34,500 nucleotides of DNA from Bacteriovoracaceae bacterium (lineage in GTDB: Bacteria; Bdellovibrionota; Bacteriovoracia; Bacteriovoracales; Bacteriovoracaceae): the NCBI GenBank assembly GCA_023954635.1, contig JAGSHI010000027.1, positions 1-34,500 of the forward strand. The letters run 5' to 3'. How positions within the stretch are numbered: position 1 is the first letter of the stretch; the number at the start of each line of letters is the position of its first letter. Made by a program: the position numbers and the translations under genes. The notes under the pieces were generated by a model. That model had not been told where the DNA came from. It searched no databases and saw nothing but the letters and a program-made list of their open reading frames with translations. This document shows positions 25,868-33,337 of the stretch, one piece after another.

Positions 25868-25960
25868 AATAATTCCTTACTGTTGTGCGCGGGAATTCTA
25901 ACTGGTGAGTTGTTTACTTACAAATAACGCCACGAACTATGTACTTGAATATTGGTTGTG

Positions 25961-26419
25961 ATGAAAGAGTTTTTAAGAAATGGTTTTACAATTATAAATA
26001 TCGAGCTTCCAGACAAGATAAAAGATCTTGTGTTGGCCGAAAAGTGGACCGAGTTAGACTCTAAATTTGGAGAGCTCTTATCTCCTGGTGGTTTATTATT
26101 CAAAAAACTAAGTGACTTTGAAACGTTTCAAGAGATTGAGAGAATTATTGCAATCAGGGAGGCCCCTGATGATGAAGGGATTTGGCACGACGATGGATCA
26201 AGGAAATTAGCCTTTTCTCTATCCCTAACGATTAACCCTGAATTGGTTGAAGGGGGTGTTCTTCATTTTAGAAAAAGAAATAGTGATGACATATCCAAAA
26301 TACCTACCCTTTGTTTTGGTAGCATGATTGTTTTTCAAACAGGGCAAAATGATTTTGAACACAGAATTTCGAGTGTAAAAAAAGGAAGACGTACTATTTG
26401 TGCCGGATGGTGTACTTAG
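25961..26419 (+). CDS. 2-oxoglutarate/Fe(II)-dependent oxygenase-like protein
   Basis: A short oxygenase of 152 aa. The iron facial triad is visible as His76 and Asp78 in GIWHDDGSRK and His134 in DFEHRIS, and the 2-oxoglutarate salt bridge as Arg144 in KKGRRTICAG. Between them runs the usual double-stranded beta-helix pattern (LAFSLSLT, GGVLHFRK, FGSMIVFQTG). Such stand-alone proteins hydroxylate amino acids, peptides or nucleic acids; the substrate is unknown. ATG 25961 is used, with only a weak ribosome site; a TTG at 25952 is possible. It diverges from the 825-aa gene. Confidence 0.85.
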   Translation: MKEFLRNGFTIINIELPDKIKDLVLAEKWTELDSKFGELLSPGGLLFKKLSDFETFQEIERIIAIREAPDDEGIWHDDGSRKLAFSLSLTINPELVEGGVLHFRKRNSDDISKIPTLCFGSMIVFQTGQNDFEHRISSVKKGRRTICAGWCT

Positions 26420-26421
26420 TC

Positions 26422-26739
26422 CTACTCAAAACTATCCAGCTCAGAAAAAGCATAAACCTCAGTTTGCATATCCTCTAACTCAACTTCTCTTTCAAAGTAG
26501 TTTTGAATAGTTTGATCGACTTCTGCGACATCAGTTTTAGGAGAAGGTTGGAAAATAAAAAGAATCACTAGAAAAGCAGCGACAAGTCCACCTGAAGCAA
26601 GAATTTCAAAGTTTAACTTCTTCTTTTGGCCTGTCTCAACCCTAGTCTTTAAAACATTATTAAGAATTGTATTACTTTCACTTCTCGAAAGCTGAATCGA
26701 AGTTTTATTTTCTAATTCTTTCCTTAGTTCATCAGTCAT
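26422..26739 (-). CDS. Probable membrane anti-sigma factor
   Basis: A protein of 105 aa with a charged cytosolic N-terminus (MTDELRKELENK), one membrane segment near residues 48-65 (SGGLVAAFLVILFIF) and an acidic outer tail. It overlaps the ECF sigma gene by eight bases (ATG 26737-26739, GGAG upstream), the usual arrangement of sigma and anti-sigma. It has no zinc motif (HxxxCxxC) and is shorter than most anti-sigmas, so the role rests on topology and position. Confidence 0.75.
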   Translation of the reverse strand: MTDELRKELENKTSIQLSRSESNTILNNVLKTRVETGQKKKLNFEILASGGLVAAFLVILFIFQPSPKTDVAEVDQTIQNYFEREVELEDMQTEVYAFSELDSFE

Positions 26740-27316
26740 GTGAAACTCCTCGCAAAAGTTCACTCATTCGTTTTTTAGCTCTATGGATCAAATTTTTTGA
26801 TGCCTGAGGGGACCTCTCCAAAAATTCAGAAATCTCTTTAATCGCCATTCCTTCCATCCAAAGTCCCAAAGCTATTCTTTGATCTGTTGAGAGTAATGAT
26901 AGTGTTTTGTATATCTCCTCTTTTTGAGATTCTTTGATCATACTTGCTAGAACTTCTTCATCTTCTACAGAAAAGCTTTCAACTTGTTCAGGATCTTCAA
27001 AAACAACTTCAGATTTCTTTCTCAAGTAATCAATGGCCGTGTTTTTTCCGATACTCCAAATCCATGTTCTTACTGATGCTTTTCCATTCCAAGTGTCTAA
27101 ATATTTAAACGCCTTTAACCATGATTCCTGAACGACTTCTTTACACTTCTCTTCATTCAAAATTAGTCTAAAGACAAACCGGTACAGCCCTGCTGAATGT
27201 CTCTCATAGAGAACGGTAAACGCTTGATCATCTCCATCAACGGCCAAAGATACCAACTCAGCATCATCAAGATCGTGAAGTGATCTTTTAAAGACGAAAT
27301 TGAAATATTTCTTCAT
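26732..27316 (-). CDS. ECF-family RNA polymerase sigma factor
   Basis: A protein of 194 aa. Region 2 spans roughly residues 20-90 (AFTVLYERHSAGLYRFVFRL, VVQESWLKAFKYLDTW, ASVRTWIWSIGKNTAIDYLR) and region 4 roughly 135-190 (LLSTDQRIALGLWMEGMAIK, EISEFLERSPQASKNLIHRA). It directs core polymerase to ECF-type promoters. ATG 27316 is preferred to 27328 because the predicted promoter start would fall at about 27329, leaving no leader for the earlier codon. Its own promoter and the divergent gene share the same motif, so it probably activates both. Confidence 0.93.
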   Translation of the reverse strand: MKKYFNFVFKRSLHDLDDAELVSLAVDGDDQAFTVLYERHSAGLYRFVFRLILNEEKCKEVVQESWLKAFKYLDTWNGKASVRTWIWSIGKNTAIDYLRKKSEVVFEDPEQVESFSVEDEEVLASMIKESQKEEIYKTLSLLSTDQRIALGLWMEGMAIKEISEFLERSPQASKNLIHRAKKRMSELLRGVSHD

Positions 27317-27335
27317 AGTCGTTTCCATCGTCTTA

Positions 27336-27364
27336 TTATACGATTAAACTTTAAAAAGGTTTCA
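27336..27364 (-). promoter_or_regulatory. ECF-type promoter of the sigma gene
   Basis: On the minus strand, TGAAACC (27364-27358), a 15-base spacer and CGTATAA (27342-27336). This equals the widespread ECF pattern TGAAAC-N16-CGTA. It gives a start near 27329, just before the sigma coding region, and supports autoregulation. Confidence 0.8.
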
Positions 27365-27413
27365 TAAATATAAACCCATGATTTTACAGGGTTTTATTCT
27401 CTAAGCCGAGCCG

Positions 27414-27442
27414 TGAAACCTAATTGATTCTGGGACGTATAA
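27414..27442 (+). promoter_or_regulatory. ECF-type promoter of the divergent exported-protein gene
   Basis: TGAAACC (27414-27420), a 15-base spacer and CGTATAA (27436-27442): identical boxes and spacing to the sigma gene's promoter on the other strand. The start would be near 27449, 35 bases before the ATG of the 27484 gene. Confidence 0.82.
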
Positions 27443-27483
27443 CTTTCAGGATCCAAATTATTATTTAAATTTATGGAGGAAAT

Positions 27484-31639: not shown

Positions 31640-33337
31640 TTAGTACTGGACTTCAACTTCTTCGATAACAAATCCCCACTTATTGATGGATCTGTCTGAC
31701 TTGAAAGTTACAATCATTGTGTCTCCTTCAACATAGTCTGAAGTATACTCAACACCACTTCCTGAAACTTTTTCAACTGTTTGTCTCGAGCCATTTGCAA
31801 CTTGAAGATAATCGTAGTTATTTTCAAATTCATACTTTTTAACTTTCAGCCTAATAAACTTGGCGCCAGCAACACTGAATTCTTTAGACTCTGTAGCGTT
31901 GTTTGCATATGGGTGAGCAGACTCCCATGAACTAGGCAACTGAACTTTTACCCAATCACCTGGCTTAGGCTCATTTCGAGCTGGCCTAGAATCTGTTAAA
32001 AGATTGTAAGCATCGATACGACCACCATTAATTGTTTTACCTCTAAGAGCTCCTACAGGAACAGACGTCGCGAGTAGTCTTTCTCTAAAGCTCTCAAGAT
32101 CCATTCTTCCCTCTTGAGCTATTAGAAGACCTACAACACCAGAAACGTGAGGCGTTGCCATCGAAGTCCCTGAGTAAACTTTGTAATCATTATTTTTAAC
32201 AGTTGAAAGAATCTTGTGACCAGGAGCTGCGATATGAACTGTTGATCTCCCGTAACAAGAAAATGAAGCTAGATCATTCTGTGCAGTTAATGCTGCAACA
32301 GAAACAACGTTTTTCACATCATAGTTAGATGGGTAATGAGGTCTTGAATCATTATTCGTACTTGAGTTACCCGCCGCTGCTGTGAAAACAATTCCAGCAT
32401 CAGCTGCTCTTTGAATCGCATCTTCTAGAGCTTGAGAGCGTCCACCGCCTCCCCATGAGTTCGACATAAGATCAACATTCATTTTAGTAGCATAATCAAT
32501 GGCCTTGATTGCATGCTCTGTTGTCCCCGACCCAGAATCTGTTAGAAACTTAATACCCATAATTCTAACGTCTTTCATTACACCAGCAACACCAAGTCCA
32601 TTATTATGAACGGCACCAATTGTTCCCGCACAGTGAGTACCATGGCTATGTCCATCAAGTGGATCACCGTCATTATTAGCAAAGTCATATCCGTAAACAT
32701 CGTCGACAAATCCGTTACCGTCATCATCAACTCCAGCTGTACCATTTAATTCAGCAGTGTTTGTCCACATATTATCTTTTAAGTCTGGGTGATTGTAGTC
32801 AATACCAGTATCGATTACTGCAATCGTTACATCTCTAGAACCTGTTGTTAGTCCCCAAGCTTTAACGGCATTAACATCAGCACCTGCCACACCTGTAGAT
32901 CCACCAGGCTCATTGTCACCTGTATTTTTTAAACCCCACAACTGACCAAACTTTGGATCGTTAGGAGTATATTTATATTCTGAATCTGGATAAGCTGGCT
33001 TAATCATCGAATCAAGGGTCAACTCTTCGATTGGCTTAACGATGCTATAAACAAAGTTAGGTTCGGCGTATTCAATGTTTTCATTTGAATTTAAAACTGA
33101 AAGAGTCTCGAAAGATGATTTATTCCCTAAAGACTTAACAACTGCATAGTTACCAAAAGCAACATCTACGTTTCTCAAGTGTTTAACACCTAGAGCTTTA
33201 AGTGACTTCATAAAAGACTTACTGTCTTTTAACTTTACAATGAATTCACCTGGGACAGTTTTGACATTGGCAGCAGCAGTGCCTGCAAACAGTAAAGAAC
33301 TGAGCGCAGCTGTCTTTAATAGTTGACCTTTTCTCAT
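31640..33337 (-). CDS. Secreted subtilisin-family serine protease (S8) with CUB-like tail
   Basis: A protein of 565 aa. Signal peptide (KTAALSSLLFAGTAAAN), then an I9-type inhibitory propeptide at ~28-98 (GEFIVKLKD, NIEYAEPNF), then the S8 domain with Asp176 (VIDTGID), His232 (HSHGTHCAG), Asn324 (AAGNS) and Ser392 (SGTSMATPH). A DDDGNGFVDD loop near residue 204 is a likely calcium site. The last ~85 residues form a beta-rich CUB-like domain (YDYLQVANG, VTFKSDRSINKWGF). A strong AAGGAGGG precedes ATG 33335-33337. It is exported and self-processed, acting on proteins outside the cell, as expected of a predatory or scavenging bacterium. Confidence 0.95.
   Translation of the reverse strand: MRKGQLLKTAALSSLLFAGTAAANVKTVPGEFIVKLKDSKSFMKSLKALGVKHLRNVDVAFGNYAVVKSLGNKSSFETLSVLNSNENIEYAEPNFVYSIVKPIEELTLDSMIKPAYPDSEYKYTPNDPKFGQLWGLKNTGDNEPGGSTGVAGADVNAVKAWGLTTGSRDVTIAVIDTGIDYNHPDLKDNMWTNTAELNGTAGVDDDGNGFVDDVYGYDFANNDGDPLDGHSHGTHCAGTIGAVHNNGLGVAGVMKDVRIMGIKFLTDSGSGTTEHAIKAIDYATKMNVDLMSNSWGGGGRSQALEDAIQRAADAGIVFTAAAGNSSTNNDSRPHYPSNYDVKNVVSVAALTAQNDLASFSCYGRSTVHIAAPGHKILSTVKNNDYKVYSGTSMATPHVSGVVGLLIAQEGRMDLESFRERLLATSVPVGALRGKTINGGRIDAYNLLTDSRPARNEPKPGDWVKVQLPSSWESAHPYANNATESKEFSVAGAKFIRLKVKKYEFENNYDYLQVANGSRQTVEKVSGSGVEYTSDYVEGDTMIVTFKSDRSINKWGFVIEEVEVQY

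Follow-up and report, generated by a model that had tools for sequence, protein, structure and literature searches.

The stretch of DNA analysed here (the window, 34,500 nucleotides from a Bacteriovoracaceae bacterium whose assembly is 3.70-Mb in size and 98% complete) contains a compact locus. A gene for an ECF sigma factor, followed by a gene for a small membrane protein, and a gene for a secreted basic protein are transcribed away from each other across a 155-bp gap (Table 1). The sequence-only reading of this DNA had placed the motif TGAAACC-N15-CGTATAA twice between the sigma gene and the exported basic protein gene, and this is exactly what an exact search of the window finds, both in location and in number. 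There is one copy per strand, at 27336-27364 (-) and 27414-27442 (+), each directed outward from the gap, compared to none in 100 dinucleotide-preserving shuffles. The putative anti-sigma gene at 26422-26739 goes unmentioned in that reading. No Rfam match was found between 26000 and 28200.

Table 1. Coordinates of the features of the sigma factor locus in the window
Feature	Position	Strand	Basis
Putative anti-sigma gene, 105 aa, overlaps sigma stop	26422..26739	-	Position, hydropathy, relatives
ECF sigma factor gene, 198 aa from ATG 27328 (194 aa from alternative ATG 27316)	26732..27328	-	Pfam, NCBIfam
-10 box CGTATAA, predicted sigma-gene promoter	27336..27342	-	N16 from -35; 7 nt before first in-frame ATG (27328)
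-35 box TGAAAC, predicted sigma-gene promoter	27359..27364	-	Sequence; kept in relatives
Interval separating the two -35 boxes, 49 bp	27365..27413	.	Window sequence
-35 box TGAAAC, predicted facing-gene promoter	27414..27419	+	Sequence; kept in relatives
-10 box CGTATAA, predicted facing-gene promoter	27436..27442	+	41 nt before ATG
GGAGG ribosome-binding site, facing gene	27475..27479	+	Sequence
Secreted basic protein gene, 152 aa	27484..27942	+	Signal peptide; predicted two-helix hairpin (30-84, 92-151)

The sigma protein matches Pfam Sigma70_r2 (40-106) and Sigma70_r4_2 (137-188) above the gathering scores and has no region 3. It scores above the cut-off of the NCBIfam sigma70-ECF superfamily, while no equivalog passed. 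Possession of regions 2 and 4 only, together with an AAC -35 and a CGT -10 element in front of its own gene, places it among the ECF (Group IV) factors. It shares with the autoregulated members of this group also the downstream anti-sigma-like gene and the predicted autoregulation (PMC8103513). The product of that downstream gene has, by hydropathy, a cytoplasmic part of around 45 residues, one transmembrane segment (~46-64) and a periplasmic part of around 40 residues, and its position and length are conserved in relatives. The AF2 model, which is of low confidence (pLDDT 61, pTM 0.20), contains helices at 3-13 and 19-36 and a transmembrane helix at 44-62. Class II (CnrY-like) anti-sigma factors have two cytoplasmic helices in front of one transmembrane segment. 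Unlike Group IV systems with a recognizable co-encoded anti-sigma factor, neither the window protein nor seven relatives gave a relevant Pfam match, including the Class I (RseA / zinc) families. Position and topology nevertheless make this small single-span protein a probable anti-sigma factor. Convergent to its gene lies a 2OG-Fe(II) oxygenase family gene (25952-26419), which is found at the locus in G002 and G029 too. In other branches of the same sigma/anti-sigma type, a gene for a secreted DUF3106-like basic protein is located downstream of the anti-sigma gene (L017:485-904 (-), L037:4120-4611 and L039:3949-4236).

The layout of the locus recurs in 16 Bacteriovoracales-type genomes, namely 15 that carry the facing-protein family and one (G057), itself from another family, in which the facing gene is a different one. 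All have a similar site on each strand at N16, counted here with no more than one mismatch to TGAAAC...CGT, and the observed pair was reached by no shuffle of any locus. Close homologues occur in MAGs labelled Bacteriovoracaceae, Halobacteriovorax and Halobacteriovoraceae. Where the facing gene stands without sigma and anti-sigma genes (L125, L128) there is no motif, and the twin motif is also absent at four loci whose sigma homologues lack a facing gene of this type (L037, L039, L042 and L043, the last from Bacteriovorax DB6_IX). Within a genome the two sites are more alike than sites of different genomes are. Taking one genome per genus, they are identical in seven of nine where 1.66 are expected (p about 0.0005, an indicative value, as these p-values ignore shared ancestry), and the concordance within genomes does not change when abutting geometries are left out.

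Changes in the sigma protein itself are a stronger test than concordance between sites. In the structures of SigW and sigma-E, R175/R176 read G-35, T171/S172 contacts position -34, H174/F175 lie on T'-33 and K170/R171 on G'-31 (PMC6713349). The window sigma4 recognition helix K-N-L-I-H-R corresponds to K170, H174 and R175 of Bacillus subtilis SigW with an Asn in place of T171, and the two -35 boxes have the sequence GAAACCT that is also present in the SigW complex (PMC6713349). The protein scores far under the cut-off of the SigW equivalog NF007223 (73.6 vs 209 bits). Two departures from the common box can be compared with the protein. In G068 both sites carry TAAAAC, hence the -35 G is an A. 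Of the residues that the other 14 sigma proteins share without exception, its sigma factor changes a single one, the G-35-reading Arg, to Gln. In G091, G025 and G076 both sites carry TGACAC, and only these three sigma factors have Lys at 174 (H174) and Gly at 171 (Asn in the window); the Lys is the residue that faces the changed base. These three genomes may form one clade (84/81, long branches). Since both sites and the contacting sigma4 residues change together, the adjacent sigma factor very probably drives both genes. The earlier suggestion that the sigma factor activates itself and the facing gene thus gains strong support, as both sites are conserved in 16 genomes and change in concert, with matching changes in the sigma4 recognition helix.

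Transcription from ECF promoters typically starts 5-8 nt after the -10 element. At 27316-27342 of the window, the first in-frame sigma ATG lies only 7 nt after the -10 heptamer, and the same distance is seen in G002, G016, G063 and G076. If transcription starts within the usual range, the sigma mRNA is therefore probably leaderless or nearly so. In about 11 of the 16 genomes the first in-frame sigma start lies 4-9 nt past the -10 element, while the leader of the facing gene is usually 19-41 nt long.

The arrangement of the two promoters differs between relatives. The -35 boxes are 41-56 bp apart in the genus of the window and in G014, G093, G096 and G068, 31 bp apart in G057 and 7 bp in G029. 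In G016, G061, G022, G091, G025 and G076 the gap is zero and the abutting boxes are palindromic (for example AAAAGTGTCATGACACTTTT), and in G063 the -35 and -10 elements, as read by eye, are fully interleaved in the palindrome TTATACGAAACTTTTT...AAAAAGTTTCGTATAA. The six abutting twins and the interleaved palindrome all lie at the same locus (L174-L179; L123:1390-1440). Among 291 genomes of the phylum, 6 have the abutting pattern, each a single time and always here, compared to one genome for a reversed control. The geometry varies, yet the predicted circuit persists. The bidirectional sigma-70 promoters of E. coli can bind RNA polymerase in two mutually exclusive orientations (PMC12825309). 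The symmetry in G063, G016 and the others would likewise let the polymerase bind either way, whereas here it is -35 boxes that abut, or -35 and -10 elements that interleave, and the reader would be an ECF sigma factor. The window differs from the sigma-70 case in having no shared symmetric -10 element; its promoters are separate, with the -35 boxes 49 bp apart. No report of an ECF form of a bidirectional promoter was found in the literature searched. We put forward, as a speculation that may well prove wrong, that one sigma factor and a mirror-image pair of promoters evolve as a unit, and that in several lineages the pair has collapsed to a single palindromic site, with abutting -35 boxes or interleaved -35/-10 elements. 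There the RNA polymerase would have to choose a direction, self-amplification of the sigma factor would compete with expression of the effector, and the weak near-leaderless sigma start would then check the loop.

A reading in which a single site of the pair acts as an ECF promoter, its partner being a copy that arose by chance or has decayed, or else a promoter for sigma-70, finds some footing in the sigma-side sequence CGTATAAT. This includes TATAAT, and hence some sigma-70 reading of it is possible. Yet both sites are conserved and co-vary, also in the CGTT and CGTC lineages that have no TATAAT, and the intergenic region holds no sigma-70 consensus pair that would drive either gene, so that we regard this reading as highly improbable. 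The question of how far the regulon extends is a different one. The pattern GAAAC-N16-CGTAT occurs exactly twice in the assembly, both times at the twin sites, while the reversed control pattern occurs 11 times. A one-mismatch scan of the same genome (G000) with the 13-base motif gave extra matches that are intragenic or lack CGT. The proposal that the module is self-contained agrees with this, as there is no other convincing intergenic strict match in its own genome. The accompanying hope that the motif would find the rest of the regulon was not borne out, as only the twin was recovered there, and the TGAAAC-N16-CGTA pattern put forward for a genome scan performed at background level (five matches, two of them the twin, vs 10 for the control). 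The sigma factor might control a large regulon whose sites follow a looser motif and so escape the strict pattern. In favor of this are the only two extra exact intergenic sites seen across three relatives. One precedes a DUF1800 gene of G002 by 23 nt (L151:1552 onward) and the other an AcrB-type RND transporter gene of G014 by 107 nt (L146), and both genes are possible lineage-specific targets. But neither the strict nor the one-mismatch scan yields a convincing extra site in the own genome, and the DUF1800 gene is missing from G000. As a shared target this gene was discarded; it is present in G001 (60% identity) and was not shown to be general. We consider a large regulon unlikely. Because the genome scans give only the twin, the module is best taken as self-contained and the strict motif as no key to a wider regulon; on the sequence at hand it looks local. 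There are five ECF-like matches in the own genome and therefore cross-talk is possible.

The protein encoded by the facing gene carries a net charge of about +25 after residue 22. In AF2 models of three sequences (mean pLDDT 85.5) a signal peptide precedes a two-helix hairpin. With a profile of the family, relatives at E up to 0.001 turn up in 28 of the 129 genomes of the order. The weakest of them are probably unrelated coiled coils; the genes of the strong relatives mostly face a sigma/anti-sigma pair. Searches with the protein gave no significant sequence match and no Foldseek match with E below 0.001, and a plasmid search found none. Two assignments were rejected: Spy/CpxP or CnrX (LTXXQ, Metal_resist), for which none of 19 members scored above the Pfam cut-off (one reached E 0.036 to Metal_resist), and Skp/OmpH, where the OmpH-like 4kqt ranked second in Foldseek but with E 2.9. 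CpxP is the divergent periplasmic helical protein of the CpxP/CpxRA system. The facing protein could similarly be a sensor or feedback component that binds the tail of the anti-sigma factor in the periplasm, as in CpxP-CpxA or CnrX-CnrY. Its tight divergent linkage in the 15 genomes with this family, its secreted, helical and basic nature and the short periplasmic tail of the anti-sigma factor would fit. The protein is, however, retained in G008 and G139 (L125, L128) without sigma or anti-sigma genes nearby, while in L017 and L037 the same sigma/anti-sigma type is paired with a different secreted basic protein, and the window protein has no Pfam match to Spy/CpxP or Metal_resist. A sensor role is therefore conceivable but rather doubtful. 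Because the protein is kept without the sigma factor and replaced beside it, we favor an effector over an obligate sensor. In G008 and G139 a 2OG-Fe(II) oxygenase family gene adjoins the facing gene. A second copy of the facing gene, without sigma gene and without upstream motif, is present in G001:C23 (L144). The window further contains a gene for a secreted subtilisin-like protease (31640-33337 (-)), and in L125 and L132 fragments of similar proteases lie next to the facing gene.

That the sites come as a pair, are confined to this locus, are conserved and change in concert with the sigma4 recognition helix makes it highly probable that the locus encodes an ECF sigma/anti-sigma switch which regulates itself and has a single dedicated output on the divergent side. 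This is strong evidence that the predicted regulator controls the two genes and at most a few others. The designation as a stress module, which the sequence-only reading used, is suggested by the type of the ECF/anti-sigma pair. In the absence of stress the small membrane protein would hold the sigma factor. An envelope signal would free it, and the freed sigma factor would bind TGAAAC-N16-CGTA on both strands. It would then transcribe its own operon, which creates a positive loop and replenishes the anti-sigma factor, as well as the gene of the secreted helical-hairpin protein. The latter would be active in the envelope or periplasm, probably as an effector with a protective or chaperone-like role.

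The kind of circuit, an autoregulated ECF factor with a divergent target, is known. In the EcfG/NepR/PhyR loci there are also two divergent units, both on the ECF factor's own promoters (PMC8103513). There the divergent gene encodes PhyR, the regulator of a general stress response, whereas here its product is secreted and the strict motif has no other site. A membrane-held regulator and a short anti-sigma factor (CnrY) are also features of CnrYXH (PMC7406223), but no sequence similarity to this system or to CpxP/CpxRA was detected. The family is apparently undescribed in the literature searched, and the promoter geometry in its relatives is unusual. What was a guess from a motif has become a minimal regulatory circuit with good support, in a lineage that is akin to predatory bacteria (Bacteriovorax) and has been little studied. 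The locus is also a natural experiment in the co-evolution of a sigma factor and its promoters: each genome offers two promoters, the contacting residues show matching changes, and the divergent pair comes in three geometries. It makes testable whether a single Arg/Gln or His/Lys change would re-target an ECF sigma factor, and how RNA polymerase is shared between abutting or interleaved ECF promoters.
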